Below, piece after piece: positions 58,769 through 64,000 of a stretch of 64,000 bases of DNA; the stretch's first letter is position 1, and each line of letters begins with the position of its first letter. A model generated the notes under the pieces. The model made no database searches. It was given only the letters and a program-made list of their open reading frames with translations, and had not been told where the DNA came from. This DNA comes from Tenacibaculum adriaticum (GTDB lineage Bacteria > Bacteroidota > Bacteroidia > Flavobacteriales > Flavobacteriaceae). The stretch spans positions 186,001 to 250,000 of the forward strand of contig NZ_VNIA01000002.1 in assembly GCF_008124875.1 (NCBI RefSeq), given 5' to 3'. A program made the translations under genes and the position numbers.

Positions 58769-58796
58769 ATTTAACATAATATTAATTATAGTACAA
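58769..58796 (-). other. dif/Xer recombination-like site
   Basis: Read on the minus strand: XerC-like arm TTGTACTATAA (58786-58796), 6-bp centre TTAATA, and XerD-like arm TTATGTTAAAT (58769-58779). The XerD arm is identical to the E. coli dif XerD half; the other arm keeps the inner ATAA. It lies 37 bp after the antiporter stop and 338 bp before the first phage gene. Probable dif, or a dif/att hybrid made by phage integration. The rest of 58733-59133 has no gene and holds this site and the hairpin at 58992. Confidence 0.6.
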
Positions 58797-58991
58797 ACAC
58801 CACATTAAAAAAAAAGGCGATTAAACCCCAATTAAAACACTAAAAACAACTTATTTCAAAGACCTTGTAGATTAATAATAGGTCAAATAAAAGAAAAATA
58901 AACCAAATAAACAAATATGAGGTCTAGTGAGTAAATTATTTTAACTTGAAAAGAGACACCGCACGAAAATAAAAGAGAGTCAAAATTCGCC

Positions 58992-59043
58992 CAAATTTTT
59001 TGGGGTTTCCCTCTTACAGGGGAATCCCTCCCAAAAAAATTTG
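58992..59043. other. Nested hairpin at the end of the phage block (origin or terminator)
   Basis: Outer arms CAAATTTTTTGGG (58992-59004) and CCCAAAAAAATTTG (59030-59043) pair over 13-14 bp with one bulge. Within them, TTCCC (59007-59011) and GGGAA (59020-59024) form an inner hairpin with an 8-nt loop. Noncoding, between the last phage gene and the dif-like site. It could end the phage operon or be a single-strand replication or packaging signal. Confidence 0.5.
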
Positions 59044-59133
59044 TTCAAATTCCAACTCCCTTTTGAGCGTTGTTTGTTGTTTCTTTTTAAGCCAAAAAAA
59101 TTTTGATGTTTTTTAGAGAACAACGAAAACAAA

Positions 59134-59562
59134 TTAACTCAAACCACTATCTCCATTCTCAAAATTCCCATCATGGAAAAGAAAATCTTCTTTAGCAGTT
59201 AACTTTAAACCATCAAAAATAACAGACATATAAGGGAAACCCTCATCCATTGGCATATAAGACGACCAACTCTCAAACATTAAAGATTCATCTACATGAG
59301 CCTGATTAAATAAAGCATTTTCTATTTTACGATTTCTATCTGTAATGATATAATCAAAACCAAAAACATGTAATTTCTTTCTCTGATTTCCTAACATAAA
59401 CGGTTGAACATGCTCTCCAGTTACTGAAATATTACCATAAAGTAACTGATTTTCTTTGATAGGCAAGGTCAATCCATTAGGTCCTAAGAAATCCATAAAA
59501 TTAAAATTGACAGGAACAGCCGAATAAGAATAACCATTGATTTGTATTGTATTAGTATTCAT
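59134..59562 (-). CDS. Phage hypothetical protein (possible minor structural)
   Basis: A 142-residue soluble, beta-rich protein without signal peptide or TM. It begins NTNTIQINGYSYSAVPVNF and includes a Gly/Pro-rich FLGPNGLTLPIKENQLLYG. The end is acidic (FHDGNFENGDSGLS). No family was recognised; composition suits a small capsid or vertex component. The ATG lies inside the end of the frameshifted gene upstream (stop at 59552), implying translational coupling. Last gene of the phage block before the nested hairpin. Confidence 0.65.
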   Translation of the reverse strand: MNTNTIQINGYSYSAVPVNFNFMDFLGPNGLTLPIKENQLLYGNISVTGEHVQPFMLGNQRKKLHVFGFDYIITDRNRKIENALFNQAHVDESLMFESWSSYMPMDEGFPYMSVIFDGLKLTAKEDFLFHDGNFENGDSGLS

Positions 59563-59820
59563 AAATAAAATATTTAATCTTTTTTAAAACAGACCAATCC
59601 TCAAAATCATCATAATCAACAAAAGGATTGAACCTATCTAAATTTATTTTTCTTTTATAGAAATTGCTTCTCTTTTTTTTTTCAAATAAGCAATTAACAA
59701 CTTTATTAACTCAACAACCAAAGCAACCAATAAAGGAACTAAGGCCACTTTAAACTCATGGGACACACTCGCAAAAGTGATTGATGTACCCCAATTCAGG
59801 AGATTTAAAAACATTTTCAT
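59552..59820 (-). CDS. Small phage membrane protein with apparent -1 frameshift
   Basis: In the zero frame this is a 58-residue protein (59644-59820) with a TM helix (ALVPLLVALVVELIKLLIAYL) and then Lys codons in a run of ten A (59673-59682). A -1 shift at that run keeps the frame open for 40 more codons, giving KRSNFYKRKINLDRFNPF and an acidic-aromatic end to a TAA at 59552, 89 residues in all. That stop overlaps the next gene's ATG by 11 bases, a normal coupling distance. Either slippage (programmed frameshift or RNA polymerase stutter) or a homopolymer length error explains it. Holin-like size, role unknown. Confidence 0.6.
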
Positions 59821-59944
59821 ATTATTTATGGAATTTTGATTGAGGATGTTTATAGCTTACTAAAGATCTAAAATCAGAAAATAATAAACCAAGAACTACA
59901 CAGTATTTAAAAATTATCATATTATTGTAAAAAATTTAAAAATT

Positions 59945-60031
59945 ATGATTAAAAAGAAAGACTTTATTTTAGGATTTGTGGCAGGAATAATATCAACTCT
60001 AACAATGGCATTAATTATCATTTCAGCATAG
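59945..60031 (+). CDS. Tiny putative membrane peptide, opposite strand
   Basis: A 28-codon ORF, ATG to TAG, with a KKK-rich start and one hydrophobic helix (DFILGFVAGIISTLTMALII). It is the only plus-strand candidate in the phage block and its end overlaps the end of the 145-residue minus gene. The amphipathic pattern is protein-like, but no promoter is clear. Low certainty. Confidence 0.3.
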   Translation: MIKKKDFILGFVAGIISTLTMALIIISA

Positions 60032-60455
60032 GAAAAGACAAACCCTTATTTGTATAGATCAAATCCAATTCTTTTAACTGACCAGTTTCGAATTCCCTTA
60101 AAAGAATGGAATTTAAATCCAAACTTTGAGTAAAGCCACCCCATGACCCTGTATCTAAAATTTTGTAGGTTCCAGTAATTCTATTATGAAATCTACGTCC
60201 AAAATCATGATGCAATTGAATTATCTCTACAGAACTTAAAGAAGAAATAGCTTTAAAAATAGGAAAATGATCATTATTAAAATAACCGATAGAACCTATT
60301 GACTCGTCAATAATTGAAATAACAGAATCTATCTTATTATTTTCAGAATAAGACTTAACATTATTAGAAAAACTAGAAAGATTAAAGACCTTATGTATAT
60401 AATAAATAACAAAAACTAAAAACCCAACTATTAAAATCCAATATTTTTTTAACAT
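60018..60455 (-). CDS. Phage hypothetical protein with N-terminal membrane anchor
   Basis: A 145-residue protein. One TM helix near the N terminus (about 4-22, YWILIVGFLVFVIYYIHKV), then a soluble domain with HHDFGRRFHNRITGTYKI and the end LIYTNKGLSFPMLK. No family recognised. Its ATG is 14 bp after a strong hairpin, so it may be on a separate or attenuated transcript from the upstream structural genes. Anchored orientation fits a virion-membrane or lysis accessory protein. Confidence 0.65.
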   Translation of the reverse strand: MLKKYWILIVGFLVFVIYYIHKVFNLSSFSNNVKSYSENNKIDSVISIIDESIGSIGYFNNDHFPIFKAISSLSSVEIIQLHHDFGRRFHNRITGTYKILDTGSWGGFTQSLDLNSILLREFETGQLKELDLIYTNKGLSFPMLK

Positions 60456-60468
60456 AATTTATTTATTT

Positions 60469-60503
60469 AATAAAGCCTTAACAATATTCGTTAAGGCTTT
60501 ATT
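60469..60503 (-). terminator. Hairpin between phage lysis gene and next gene
   Basis: A 14-bp perfect stem (AATAAAGCCTTAAC with GTTAAGGCTTTATT) and 7-nt loop, 18 bp after the muramidase gene stop. Tail on the minus strand is A/T-rich but has only short T runs; probable partial terminator. Confidence 0.65.
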
Positions 60504-60520
60504 GTTATTAATCTATATAA

Positions 60521-61087
60521 TTATGAGTAAGCTAAAATAAAGCCCTCATCTATATGCTTATTAGCTATATGACGCCCATTTTCATGCTTTATAATTGCCC
60601 TTACCAACTGCTTCTTTGAAACACCATCAGAAAACCACTGAGAAACCTCCCCATCAATATCTTGACCGATAGAACTAGCAACAGCCTGCATATAAGCTTC
60701 AGAATTATTTTCTTTCTCAGGCGCATATTTCAAAATCAATTGTCTAAGTGTCATATTAGGAGATTTACGCAAGTACGTTTCTAATAATCTAAACAAAGCA
60801 CGAACACCAAATTCCATTGTTTTAAATTGCTCGAAAGCACCATCAGTATTCTTACTTCTATCAATAACACCCTGCCAATTATTTACAGGATTTATACGAA
60901 TATTTCCCGGGTTAAAATTTCTAATACCTCTAGGTAAATCTTTATTTGTTCCAACTGGATACATGCTGTAATCATCCACAGCTGTAGCACTATCAATATT
61001 ATCGTTTTTTTTCATCTTTTTTGAAAATAATAAGCCTATCAAACCCAAAGGTATCAAAGCTAAGATTTGTAAAAATTTATTGTTCAT
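60521..61087 (-). CDS. Virion-associated muramidase/transglycosylase-like protein
   Basis: About 188 residues from the preferred start. An N-terminal TM helix (KFLQILALIPLGLIGLLFS) anchors it. The domain (about 55-150) has IRNFNPGNIRINPVNNWQGV, FEQFKTMEFGVRALFRLLETY and LILKYAPEKENNSEAYMQAV. This is the pattern of phage peptidoglycan-degrading proteins often called structural protein P5. It would open the peptidoglycan during entry or exit. Met at 61087 is preferred over 61105 because it lowers overlap with the upstream gene (11 instead of 29 bases). Confidence 0.8.
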   Translation of the reverse strand: MNNKFLQILALIPLGLIGLLFSKKMKKNDNIDSATAVDDYSMYPVGTNKDLPRGIRNFNPGNIRINPVNNWQGVIDRSKNTDGAFEQFKTMEFGVRALFRLLETYLRKSPNMTLRQLILKYAPEKENNSEAYMQAVASSIGQDIDGEVSQWFSDGVSKKQLVRAIIKHENGRHIANKHIDEGFILAYS

Positions 61088-61298
61088 CTGTTTGAGATTT
61101 AACATTCTTTTTGTCTTTTGGTAAAACTGAATCCTCTACGATATCAATATCCCAAATATTTTCTACATCCTTAACAAATAAACCAAGACATTCAATAGCC
61201 GAACCCAAAGTATCAGATACTTTTTTAACTACTCCCGTATATTTAGTAACCTTACTCCCAAGGTTAAAAATAATTGAACCTATTTTTAAAAGTTTCAT
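61077..61298 (-). CDS. Small phage protein, 73 residues
   Basis: Begins with a mildly hydrophobic helix (KLLKIGSIIFNLGSKVTKY), then VSDTLGSAIECLGLFVKDV and a charged tail rich in Asp and Lys (DKKNVKSQTDEQ). No family recognised; it may be a membrane-associated virion protein. Its ATG coincides with the stop of the upstream 137-residue gene, showing tight translational coupling. Confidence 0.65.
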   Translation of the reverse strand: MKLLKIGSIIFNLGSKVTKYTGVVKKVSDTLGSAIECLGLFVKDVENIWDIDIVEDSVLPKDKKNVKSQTDEQ

Positions 61299-61711
61299 TA
61301 GTTATAATTTTTAGAAATATGTTTACCAATATATCCCCCATTACTCGCCTTTGGATTTACTATCCAGTTCAAGTCTTTAAAATAGACTTTATGATTTGAC
61401 AAATCCATTAAACCATTAGCAAATAAAGTCTCTTTAAAAGGTGCTTCCATAGTCATAGTTACTTGTACCCATTTCTTACCAGAACCAGACTTAACAATAT
61501 CACTAGATATCTGTGCCTTTACCGTCTTTCCTTGATAATTTTTACGGTCATTCTTAGTCTGAAAAATTTTTACATTTCTCATTACACCATCAAAAAGCTT
61601 GAAACCCACAATAAAAACGCCCTCACCTTTTTTATAAGGCTCTACAATCTTACAACCACTTTTAGGTTTATAATTACCATTGTTATAAGTGTTATTATTT
61701 CTATTTCCCAT
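61298..61711 (-). CDS. Phage protein with Asn/Gly-rich start, possible ssDNA-binding
   Basis: A 137-residue soluble protein. The first 20 residues are Asn/Gly/Tyr-rich (GNRNNNTYNNGNYKP). Beta-rich core: GEGVFIVGFKLFDGVMRNVKIF, GKTVKAQISSDIV and KKWVQVTMTME, consistent with an OB-like or jelly-roll fold. The positive charge would suit nucleic-acid binding (inference). Overlaps the next gene's ATG at its stop. Confidence 0.6.
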   Translation of the reverse strand: MGNRNNNTYNNGNYKPKSGCKIVEPYKKGEGVFIVGFKLFDGVMRNVKIFQTKNDRKNYQGKTVKAQISSDIVKSGSGKKWVQVTMTMEAPFKETLFANGLMDLSNHKVYFKDLNWIVNPKASNGGYIGKHISKNYN

Positions 61712-61712
61712 A

Positions 61713-61886
61713 TTAAGAACGTTTTTTCGCTTTTACAACTCTTGGTTTACTACTAGTAAATAAAAGAGATAAAACACCAATTATTAACCCCAACAAAGCT
61801 CCAAACCAATACCACAACTGAACACCTTGCCATTCCTTTGACATGAACGCAATAAATTGCGCCCAATATTTTTTTATAGTTTCCAT
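61713..61886 (-). CDS. Small phage membrane protein, 57 residues
   Basis: ATG at 61884-61886 to TAA at 61713. A charged N part (ETIKKYWAQFIAFMSKEWQG) is followed by one TM helix (LWYWFGALLGLIIGVLSLLF) and a basic tail (KPRVVKAKKRS). Position and shape suit a virion membrane protein. Stop is 1 bp before the next gene's ATG, start 9 bp after the previous stop. Confidence 0.7.
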   Translation of the reverse strand: METIKKYWAQFIAFMSKEWQGVQLWYWFGALLGLIIGVLSLLFTSSKPRVVKAKKRS

Positions 61887-61894
61887 ACTATATA

Positions 61895-62608
61895 CTATTT
61901 TTTATATTTATTATAAATGAATACACCTAAACCAGCCACAATCGTAACTAAAAGACCTATTAAAACCCATTTGTTACCTTTTTCCGTAACATTTTCTTCA
62001 ACCACAACAACTTCTCCCGATGGTAAAACGACAGTCTTTTTAACAGCAGTTTTAGGAGGACTAACAGTTTTTACAACTTGTTTAGCCTTATATTTACGAT
62101 ACGCTACATTGCCTTTAACATATGACGTCATACTTTTTCCATTAAAATCACGAAATCCCTTACCATTTACCGTATCAGATAAAGTATCAAAATCGAATTT
62201 TTCAGCCATCAAAGTTCTAAAACGGTTTAAATGATTGGTAACCGCATCTAATTGAATTTTACGCCTTTCTATATATGATGGTCTTTTTCCATCAGATAAC
62301 AAACGCTCTGACAATGCCTTATATACACTAAGAGCAAAATCCATACGTGATGCTTTCTCCAAATCACTAACCCCCTTATTAGCATAATCTTCTGAATAAC
62401 CAACTATAAGCTGGTAAGTTGTATTTGCCTTTTGTGCAATTTCTTCTGGTGAATCATCGAACAAACCTGACACCGCATCAAAAGCCTGACCAATAATTGC
62501 ACCACCAATGTTGCCACCACTAAGAACGCTTCCAAAAATTGAACCTATATTACCTGATGAAGATTGCTTCACAAGCGGTTGAACATCTTTAATATCAAAT
62601 GATAACAT
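61895..62608 (-). CDS. Tail-anchored phage structural protein candidate
   Basis: A 237-residue protein. The N-terminal 55 residues are Gly/Ser/Ile-rich (SSGNIGSIFGSVLSGGNIGG), resembling phage membrane-insertion segments. A helical middle (about 55-165) is followed by a Lys/Pro/Val-rich linker and a C-terminal TM (WVLIGLLVTIVAGLGVFIYN), then KKYKK. This anchors it in a membrane, consistent with a virion with an internal lipid layer. 11 bp downstream of the capsid-like gene. Confidence 0.65.
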   Translation of the reverse strand: MLSFDIKDVQPLVKQSSSGNIGSIFGSVLSGGNIGGAIIGQAFDAVSGLFDDSPEEIAQKANTTYQLIVGYSEDYANKGVSDLEKASRMDFALSVYKALSERLLSDGKRPSYIERRKIQLDAVTNHLNRFRTLMAEKFDFDTLSDTVNGKGFRDFNGKSMTSYVKGNVAYRKYKAKQVVKTVSPPKTAVKKTVVLPSGEVVVVEENVTEKGNKWVLIGLLVTIVAGLGVFIYNKYKK

Positions 62609-62619
62609 ATTATTAGATT

Positions 62620-63357
62620 TTAGTTAAATTTAACCCCGAAGAATTCATAATCTTCTCCCCTTGTATCTTCTATGATTATCTCCTTTGCCTTTCTTACATC
62701 TAAAACATGGCAATAACGAGAACCATACACAGGAACTCCTAAAAGGTGACCTACAACACCATGTGTGGTTGTTTCAAACGCTTCTAAAATTTCAGCATCA
62801 ATAGTTTCTTTTTCTGCATCATAGAAAATAGTTAATTCCTCAGGAATTGAAGCAGCTTCTTTTTTAAAGACTAAATAATTAAACTCAGAAACATCTAATC
62901 TTTGTTCATAGTCTTTTCCTGAATATGGAAAACGTTTTAATTGATACAACGATGTCGCTTTTTGTTTACCACCTAAAGCAAATACTGAAGCTTGAGCATT
63001 ATCTCCAAATTCAGAAATATCTACGTTTAACGTGTCGTCATCTCCAAGTAGAATTTCTCCACCTAAAGCAACCTGAACTATTCCCCTTGTTAACATAGGA
63101 GAACCAGAACCATTGTCTACAAGCTCATAAGTTGGAGCTGTACCCGATAAAAGTCTTTGAATTTTTTGTTGAGCTTCAACTAGCATTCCTAAAGAAACAG
63201 GAGTGGTAATTTTCTGATTATCAACAGTCGCTCTTTCTACTAATGTCTCAACTGTAGCAGTTGGTAAAACATTTTTGAATAACAAATGTTGTGCGCTGTC
63301 TAAATGCTCAAATTTAATTGGCATTTCTGCACCAATAAACAATACTTTTTTTGACAT
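62620..63357 (-). CDS. Candidate major capsid protein
   Basis: A 245-residue soluble, beta-rich protein with no TM or signal. Strand-rich segments include RGIVQVALGGEILLGDDDTL, SVFALGGKQKATSLYQLKRF and EELTIFYDAEKETIDAE. Size is close to the double-jelly-roll capsid proteins of PM2-like phages (about 270) and it is first in the structural block after rep. No sequence motif proves it; a fold prediction would decide. A long 5' gap to rep holds a terminator and likely a strong promoter. Confidence 0.5.
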   Translation of the reverse strand: MSKKVLFIGAEMPIKFEHLDSAQHLLFKNVLPTATVETLVERATVDNQKITTPVSLGMLVEAQQKIQRLLSGTAPTYELVDNGSGSPMLTRGIVQVALGGEILLGDDDTLNVDISEFGDNAQASVFALGGKQKATSLYQLKRFPYSGKDYEQRLDVSEFNYLVFKKEAASIPEELTIFYDAEKETIDAEILEAFETTTHGVVGHLLGVPVYGSRYCHVLDVRKAKEIIIEDTRGEDYEFFGVKFN

Positions 63358-63419
63358 ACTAAAATTTAATTTTAATTATTATTAATTTCAGTACAATAGT
63401 ATGCCGATAAGAAAAAGAA

Positions 63420-63440
63420 CTCTTCGCACTATGCCAAGAG
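63420..63440 (-). terminator. Terminator after the phage rep gene
   Basis: On the minus strand CTCTT pairs with AAGAG and GCA with TGC inside, one mismatch between them, then a T-rich tract (TTCTTTTTC). It lies 24 bp after the rep stop and before the capsid-like gene. Confidence 0.55.
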
Positions 63441-63464
63441 TATTAAATTTATTTTACAGGTAAG

Positions 63465-64000
63465 TTATTTTATATTATGAACCCAAAATGCAGAGCTACC
63501 AAAATCAATACACACCTGATTACTTTCATTAAAAATAAGTGGATCTATTTTTTTTGTTTCTTTGATCAAAGAAACACTTTTTAAAACATCAATGTTTTCA
63601 AGGGCTGTAGAAAATTCATTTATAAGTTTTTTATAATGTTGCTTTATAGATTGCCAAATATCTTTAAATTTTGTTTTTGCAATATCGTGAATTCTCCCAG
63701 CATGTACACTAAAAAAATCATCATAAGCGACTAATTTTAAACCCGATTTACTTATCATAGAAATAACCGCATCAAAAATCGGCTCACTATCTGTTATTTT
63801 AGGATAATCTAATTTTTTGGTATCATTGCTCAAACCCCAAATTTTGCCTAATATAGGACGTTTTCCAACTTCTTGTTTATCCATGTATTTCATAATGTAT
63901 CGTGAAGTTTCTTGCACATTTTCCAAACTTTTGATATCTGTGGTATTAGGATTTTTAAAACCCTGTAATTTTTCAATATTATAAACCTGTTTTTGCTCGT
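63465..64000 (-). CDS. Rolling-circle replication initiator Rep (5' part outside window)
   Basis: The C-terminal 178 codons of an open frame that continues past the right edge (the in-window Met-like codon at 63926 is an internal TTG). YIMKYMDK (63876-63899) carries two tyrosines spaced by three, as in the YxxKY active site of phiX174 protein A-type HUH initiators. GKIWGLSND follows, as in many ssDNA phage Reps. The protein should nick the origin and replicate the phage by rolling circle. Upstream catalytic HUH motif lies outside the window. Confidence 0.8.
   Translation of the reverse strand, partial: EQKQVYNIEKLQGFKNPNTTDIKSLENVQETSRYIMKYMDKQEVGKRPILGKIWGLSNDTKKLDYPKITDSEPIFDAVISMISKSGLKLVAYDDFFSVHAGRIHDIAKTKFKDIWQSIKQHYKKLINEFSTALENIDVLKSVSLIKETKKIDPLIFNESNQVCIDFGSSAFWVHNIK

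Follow-up and report, generated by a model that had tools for sequence, protein, structure and literature searches.

A probable phiCjT23-like temperate phage in the dif site of the Tenacibaculum adriaticum chromosome

The small phage phiCjT23 (ON067806; 7,642 nt), whose circular ssDNA genome lies in a T = 21 virion that contains lipid, has been grown as an independent phage, and 57 putative phiCjT23-like prophages of 6,021–8,407 bp with dif sites were described in Flavobacterium in 2022, for which integration by XerC/XerD was proposed (Kejzar 2022, PMC9719478). In its main text, that paper asks of such prophages only a replication initiator, not a Rep resembling phiCjT23 gp03 (PMC9719478). A second group, that of FLiP (MF361639, Finnlakeviridae), carries M13-like Reps, and module replacement has been presented as a general trait (PMC5894146); a FLiP-like prophage is reported from Mesoflavibacter (PMC8682789) and further ones from Sphingobacteriia, FLiP itself not integrating (PMC13269007). 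Our literature search retrieved no report of such prophages in Tenacibaculum: the main text of PMC9719478 does not contain the name, although its supplements may list some, and the relevant part of PMC8776804 shows none in the genus. Here we analyse a 64,000-nucleotide stretch of Tenacibaculum adriaticum, hereafter the window (positions 186001–250000 of contig 2, or C2, of a 3.2-Mb genome in 21 contigs). Its right end holds most of an element that is very probably a phiCjT23-type temperate phage, inserted in the dif site of the host chromosome; the genus is marine. The kind is known, that of the phiCjT23-like prophages; what differs is the lineage, which is in Tenacibaculum and has a Rep of another family.

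The complete-looking element spans 7,570 bp (window ~58769–66367). Its right part was taken from the same contig past 64000, using a flank sequence of 19.5 kb round the right end of the window (L002; window coordinate = L002 + 58500). A perfect 22-nt repeat at L002 276–297 and 7846–7867 (window 58776–58797 and 66346–66367), the copies 7,570 bp apart, encloses all genes. A preliminary description, made from the window alone, had seen here one end of an integrated non-tailed phage and had placed its left border at 58769, the left edge of a 29-nt dif site. The inspection it proposed to the right of 64000 yielded the 5' end of rep, a second border and four more open reading frames (ORFs). The genes run on the minus strand from L002 7717 to 634 and encode, in this order, proteins of 187, 64, 84, 80, 456 (Rep), 245 (capsid protein), 237, 57, 137, 73, 194, 145, 58 and 142 amino acids (aa; Table 1). 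This list of 14 omits ORFs shorter than 50 aa and a 100-aa ORF that overlaps the 64-aa ORF. Homologues in three related loci (L030, L033 and L036) led us to prefer the 64-aa frame over the overlapping 100-aa ORF, which has a hydrophobic segment and had displaced the shorter frame in family clustering.

Table 1. Features of the element, in window coordinates (positions beyond 64000 lie on the same contig).
Feature	Position	Strand	Basis
3' border, full dif TTTGTACTATAA-ttaata-TTATGTTAAAT (XerC arm, central hexamer, XerD arm)	58769..58797, 29 nt	-	repeat, dif scoring
142-aa last gene, candidate vertex (penton/spike) protein	59134..59562	-	position like phiCjT23 gp13 spike
58-aa protein, one hydrophobic segment	59644..59820	-	ORF, hydrophobicity
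145-aa protein, N-terminal hydrophobic segment	60018..60455	-	family in 11/11 elements and in phiCjT23-type element of G200
194-aa peptidoglycan-degrading enzyme, N-terminal hydrophobic segment, gp10 homologue	60521..61105	-	42% over 125 aa, 9e-28
73-aa small protein	61077..61298	-	ORF; outside multi-member clusters of element families
137-aa protein, phiCjT23 gp07 homologue	61298..61711	-	single sequence 1.4e-5; family profile 1.8e-12
57-aa protein, one hydrophobic segment	61713..61886	-	family in 8 elements
237-aa protein, C-terminal hydrophobic anchor, probable gp06 counterpart	61895..62608	-	profile to gp06 0.0021; family in 9 elements
Major capsid protein, double jelly roll, 245 aa	62620..63357	-	AF2 model, structure match, profile match
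HUH Rep, 456 aa	C-terminal part in window 63465..64000; whole gene L002 4965-6335 = window 63465-64835	-	Pfam, motifs
80-, 84-, 64-, 187-aa ORFs beyond Rep, within element	up to L002 7717 = window 66217	-	ORF list
Gene 1, 187 aa	L002 7154-7717 = window 65654-66217	-	family in 11/11 elements
5' border: XerC arm, same hexamer, degenerate XerD arm	L002 7839-7867 = window 66339-66367	-	repeat, arm scoring

By computation, the element has a major capsid protein (MCP) of the phiCjT23 double-jelly-roll (DJR) type, structural genes ordered as in phiCjT23, a Rep of the HUH class from another Pfam family and, at its two ends, dif-type borders that share one central hexamer. The 245-aa protein, which had been singled out as beta-rich and of capsid size, was modelled by AlphaFold (AF2) with a best predicted local confidence (pLDDT) of 86.3 (70.9–86.3 across five models) and a predicted TM-score (pTM) of 0.87. 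The protein is indeed beta-rich, and the model consists of strands and one long helix per half. In VIA it superimposes on the phiCjT23 MCP (7zzz) with Z 21.6 and a root-mean-square deviation of 2.8 Å over 229 aligned residues, followed by FLiP (13.7), PM2 (13.1), PRD1 (up to 12.8) and STIV (12.5); the twelve best rows (Z >=12.1) are all DJR capsid proteins. Foldseek returns 7zzz_A at 6e-14, FLiP at 4.6e-9 and PM2 at 1.2e-5. The fold is that of a DJR capsid protein, and the non-capsid fold named as a counter-finding in the preliminary description was not seen.

Relatedness at the sequence level required profiles, single-sequence searches having given little. As a single sequence the 245-aa protein matched nothing in phages (tblastn) or in the PDB (phmmer), BLAST made no link to the phiCjT23 MCP, and single-sequence searches of viral contigs with the MCP and Rep gave no confirmed match. 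A profile built from nine members of the 245-aa family (A1) and run against all PDB sequences found the phiCjT23 MCP (7zzz) at 7.1e-5 as the sole significant match, the next being at 0.4. The MCP of G320 gave weak, unrelated PDB matches only. Against the FLiP MCP there was no match by profile or hhalign, the two proteins having the fold in common (Z 13.7). The term 'FLiP-like' therefore holds for the fold, but the nearest phage that we found is phiCjT23, by structure (Z 21.6 versus 13.7) and by a profile match to phiCjT23 only.

The remaining structural block follows phiCjT23 as well. Family profiles match gp07 (1.8e-12), gp10 (2.1e-35) and, weakly, gp06 (0.0021), in the same order as in phiCjT23. 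The 194-aa protein, described earlier as muramidase-like, matches phrog_873 'endolysin' at 2e-36; additional PHROG labels 'tail' and 'head' stem from the same lytic domain. The small anchored proteins of the preliminary description are also there, in that five proteins of the block (237, 57, 194, 145 and 58 aa) contain hydrophobic segments, as would be expected of a phage with an inner membrane, without proving one. The 142-aa product of the last gene is conserved in its N-terminal half in nine elements. Its weak model (pLDDT 65) has the FLiP penton (8a06) as top VIA row (Z 5.8, 104 residues aligned; next 4.5; the tool's mark is 8), which is a hint only of penton likeness; the phiCjT23 penton was not among the rows shown and may still match. 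In phiCjT23-like phages the spike has a penton domain that is a small beta-barrel. Pfam and PHROGs scans covered ten of the 14 proteins (the 57-, 73- and 58-aa proteins were left out, and the 64-aa protein was scanned in Pfam only). Among these ten there is no convincing integrase, terminase or tail family, as had been stated from the window alone. A label 'tail assembly chaperone' on the 237-aa protein, at 0.25, was counted as noise.

Set beside phiCjT23, the element is alike in size (7,570 versus 7,642), in its DJR MCP of ~240 aa and in the order Rep, MCP, gp06, gp07, gp10, vertex gene. Like the phiCjT23-like prophages, it has a Rep gene followed closely by an MCP gene within a total of ~6–8.4 kb, an MCP homologous to phiCjT23 P5 (by the Z score and profile match given above) and a dif-type site at both ends, here by repeat and scoring and in Flavobacterium according to PMC9719478. 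It differs in its Rep (REP_ORF2-G2P rather than Rep_trans), and Rep homology to gp03, a criterion that we added, is absent. Further differences are a last gene of 142 rather than 283 aa, with no likeness by hhalign, a first gene (187 aa) without a phiCjT23 match, an MCP that is not BLAST-linked, and a host in Tenacibaculum instead of Flavobacterium. With FLiP the element shares a DJR MCP, a rolling-circle Rep and a lytic enzyme in the structural block; in contrast, the FLiP MCP has 311 aa, eight ORFs separate Rep and MCP on the FLiP circle, and the FLiP Rep is of the Phage_CRI family. Neither an MCP resembling FLiP in sequence, the mark that we chose for Finnlakeviridae, nor an M13-like (Phage_CRI) Rep is found in the element. 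PM2 (Corticoviridae) has a DJR MCP, P2 (Z 13.1), but is a dsDNA phage; the packaging ATPase of the PM2 group (PMC5894146) was not among the families found in the ten proteins scanned.

The small size (7.6 kb), the lack of a detected integrase and several proteins of unassigned role would also suit a Xer-dependent satellite that encodes its capsid and depends on a helper phage. We regard this as quite improbable: phiCjT23, which resembles the element in size (7,642 nt) and in the order of its structural genes, grows alone as a phage (PMC9719478), and the element has a Rep, an MCP, anchored proteins and a lytic enzyme of its own.

The Rep, whose Y-x-x-K-Y had been noticed on the minus strand where the gene runs off the window at 64000, is complete in the contig with 456 aa; its start may lie ~40 codons further in, where four of eight relatives begin. 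All 11 related Reps have both the HUH motif NGNIHFH and the Y-x-x-K-Y. The profile search that had been suggested assigns it to Pfam REP_ORF2-G2P (2.3e-11), as it does the Reps of L034, Labilibacter and Leptobacterium. The Rep of phiCjT23 falls in Rep_trans PF02486 (2.9e-5, under the curated cut-off) and that of FLiP in Phage_CRI (8e-8); PHROGs likewise splits the three, into phrog_3419 (Tenacibaculum element), phrog_20614 (phiCjT23) and phrog_702 (FLiP). The Reps are thus different families in current libraries, and they could still share a deep common origin. A search for Rep relatives gave 28 loci, five of them in Tenacibaculum; among the 23 others, two have an MCP match (Leptobacterium L044 and Labilibacter L045). 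This search missed three of the eight relatives in the genus (G423, G453 and G553) and is no census. In Pfam, four of ten proteins from six Rep loci lacking an MCP had a family, none of them capsid or Zot. One such locus, in Odoribacter sp. Z80 (L048 8956–12788), lacks an MCP match; downstream of its Rep, which is of the same family, lies a D12 methylase, and the locus is seemingly another kind of element.

Inoviridae are recognized by a Zot-type assembly ATPase and small coat proteins. The only matches of the Rep among phage records are four labelled 'Inoviridae sp.' (best 23.6% identity over 38% of the Rep), and filamentous phages of the CTX type, as cited in PMC9719478, also use dif with host XerC/XerD. 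Together, Rep and dif raised the reading of a filamentous, inovirus-like prophage. We rejected it on the capsid fold, the 245-aa protein modelling as a DJR capsid protein, and consider it extremely improbable; moreover, unlike in CTX-type phages, no Zot-type, coat-protein or other filamentous assembly family was found at E up to 1 in the ten proteins scanned in Pfam and PHROGs. We likewise discarded a plasmid or integrative and conjugative element (ICE), the outcome that the preliminary description held up against its own proposal, since the prophage terminates 2.4 kb past the right end of the window and neither the scanned proteins of its right-hand part nor five flanking ones gave a conjugation or plasmid family.

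Both borders point to dif. The sequence ATAAN6TTATGTTAAAT has its sole exact match in the genome at the 3' border. In the genus, TACTATAAN6TTATGTTAAAT with at most one mismatch occurs in 127 of 166 genomes, at one place each save three genomes with two, compared with six for the reversed control. Nine genomes carry the element or a relative; eight of these have the pattern once, always at the 3' border of the element, and G433 lacks it. With arms scored, the 3' border is a dif-type site in all nine; its XerD arm is intact in seven and carries a single mismatch in two (L034 and L035), and mismatches in its XerC arm number one each in L013 and L032 and three in L033. In eight of the nine, a 5' site has the hexamer of the element's own 3' dif (ttaata in five, tttata in three) next to a poor XerD arm, and these sites were picked by arm score with the hexamer not used; the one in L034 is weak (9/12 in the XerC arm). 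When the 900 nt that precede gene 1 were shuffled 20,000 times (first-order Markov), no shuffle matched the XerC arm and hexamer of the 3' dif at 17/18 or better. Along the contig (399.5 kb, in 10-kb bins), GC skew is above zero in 16 of the 20 bins leading to dif and below zero in 18 of the 19 that follow, a sign change that places dif near the terminus. The host encodes an XerD above the curated cut-off and a second, XerC-like protein, which likely serve as the integrase.

Beyond the 5' border, ~700 bp (L002 7898–8563, window 66398–67063) contain no ORF longer than 54 aa. Two dif-like stretches in opposite orientation lie there (L002 7898–7931 and 8024–8056; seen by eye, partly a detected repeat), together with an 18-nt half-dif copy identical to the 3' border sequence (L002 8546–8563); these are perhaps scars of earlier integrations. 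Further out, L002 8579–11080 (window 67079–69580) encodes a DndB/DpdB-type protein (Pfam DndB 4e-10, PADLOC DpdB 2.5e-19), a 188-aa protein and a D12 adenine methylase, which may form a defence or modification cluster beside the prophage and near dif.

The nine carriers, the source genome included, were found with the Rep among 166 genomes of the genus, and an MCP homologue adjoins Rep in eight of the eight others. For these relatives, identity is 23–34% in the MCP and 38–42% in the Rep. With Leptobacterium and Labilibacter the elements number 11. Gene 1, Rep and the 145-aa protein are present in all 11, and the 237- and 80-aa families in nine. The MCP, too, is in 11 of 11, a count in which L033 comes from a separate search (it was dropped by an overlap filter in clustering) and the two distant elements from a profile search. 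Across the family, the single MCP sequence found 2 of 397 genomes, and profiles found the MCP in at least 3 and Rep in at least 14 of 378 genomes drawn from it, each count including the source genome; 11 of these 14 are weak partial matches of unclear kind, and the counts from the draw are lower bounds, part of the first-look candidates having been scored.

The slot of the cell-wall enzyme varies. A gp10-like enzyme is found in the source element, L034, L035, Labilibacter and phiCjT23, and another type in L013, L030–L033 and L036; two of the latter were scanned, L031 being a clear Peptidase M15 and L013 falling under the cut-off. The Leptobacterium enzyme is M23-like, also under the cut-off. 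Labilibacter has the same Rep type near an MCP that BLAST ties directly to the phiCjT23 MCP. In Leptobacterium flavescens, L044 17176–17972 contains a second dif-like site and a second gene-1 homologue (1.6e-14), and the locus is a probable tandem of two such prophages. An element in another genus (G200) has an MCP 38% identical to that of phiCjT23, a protein matching both FLiP gp09 (3e-15) and phiCjT23 gp06 (3e-9), and also encodes a protein of the 145-aa family; by these similarities it appears to tie the FLiP, phiCjT23 and Tenacibaculum groups together. At its locus (L102 5827–13685), a 375-aa ORF without a Pfam match stands in the place of Rep, and a 348-aa leucine-rich-repeat protein (PF13306) is also encoded.

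In the eight Tenacibaculum elements with an identified 5' attachment (att) site, gene 1 starts 94–163 nt past it. The gene has no match in Pfam, PADLOC or phage records, phiCjT23 and FLiP included, and its best PHROG is at 0.21; a role as regulator or in assisting Xer recombination is no more than a guess.

Several observations weigh against an integrated phage of the phiCjT23 kind. The Rep has no detectable similarity to that of phiCjT23 or FLiP in profiles or hhalign: against gp03 there was no profile match (bits -2.3) and an hhalign probability of 0.2, and against FLiP gp15 no match. At 21 of the 23 Rep-bearing loci outside the genus no MCP match was seen nearby, so this Rep family also serves other elements; that it is not of the plasmid or ICE type holds insofar as it lies near a DJR capsid gene in 11 elements, but the association is not exclusive. 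Two of the five AlphaFold models of the 245-aa protein reached only 71–72. The phiCjT23 MCP, as a single query, found none of the 166 Tenacibaculum genomes, and the relatedness therefore rests on profile and structure. The 142-aa vertex candidate had no significant match in a profile search of the PDB, in hhalign against the FLiP penton and the phiCjT23 spike, or in Foldseek. An arm-score search found no convincing 5' site in L035, the dif of G433 has three changes in its XerC arm, the genes of the G200 element are opposite in orientation to its own att-like sites, and the cumulative GC skew peaks at C2:220307, 24 kb off dif. An empty site was not seen: the antiporter gene of the left flank occurs in only 3 of 166 genomes (1e-60) and the 148-aa gene of the right flank in 2 (1e-20), both counts including the source genome.

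A temperate phage of the phiCjT23 kind remains by far the best explanation, and structure prediction, profile, synteny and both borders agree with the integrated, non-tailed DJR-capsid phage with a rolling-circle Rep that had been proposed. That integrated relatives are rarely described, as was also said, is partly outdated by the Flavobacterium prophages of PMC9719478. Packaging of single-stranded DNA (ssDNA), a membrane and present activity are presumed. The Rep would nick the circular form and drive rolling-circle replication, and single strands would be packaged with a membrane in a T = 21-like shell of the 245-aa protein. The anchored proteins of 237, 57, 145 and 58 aa may sit in or on that membrane, and the 194-aa enzyme would breach the peptidoglycan when the phage enters or leaves the cell. 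The phage site, made up of an XerC arm, the hexamer and a degenerate XerD arm, would be recombined with dif by the XerC and XerD of the host. This recombination would leave a complete dif at the 3' border, such that chromosome dimers could still be resolved.

A domesticated or defective remnant at dif, which keeps its genes and no longer makes particles, is the strongest competitor of an active phage, although we think it unlikely. The half-dif copy and the two dif-like stretches outside the 5' border, perhaps older integrations, would suit a remnant. In contrast, the ORFs of the element are open and the core genes are kept in eight relatives at the identities given above; from this retention in diverged relatives we argue for upkeep by selection.

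A broader proposal, which we hold to be evenly balanced, is that these elements represent a separate Bacteroidota family of ssDNA phages of the membrane type, whose capsid core stays constant and is joined freely to replication, lysis and vertex modules. It would include a third kind of rolling-circle Rep alongside the DJR capsid, cell-wall enzymes of apparently three kinds in one slot (gp10-like, M15 peptidase or M23 peptidase) and shells of phiCjT23 type that perhaps bear a FLiP-type penton. If so, the ssDNA DJR capsid would have gained its replication gene several times. Nine of 166 Tenacibaculum genomes and members of two other Bacteroidota genera have the same capsid core with another Rep. 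They offer material on how frequently capsid and replication genes are re-paired, in a lineage that BLAST with the capsid protein of the isolate misses. Placed at dif with that site regenerated, the prophage lends itself to direct tests of excision and of what excision does to dimer resolution.

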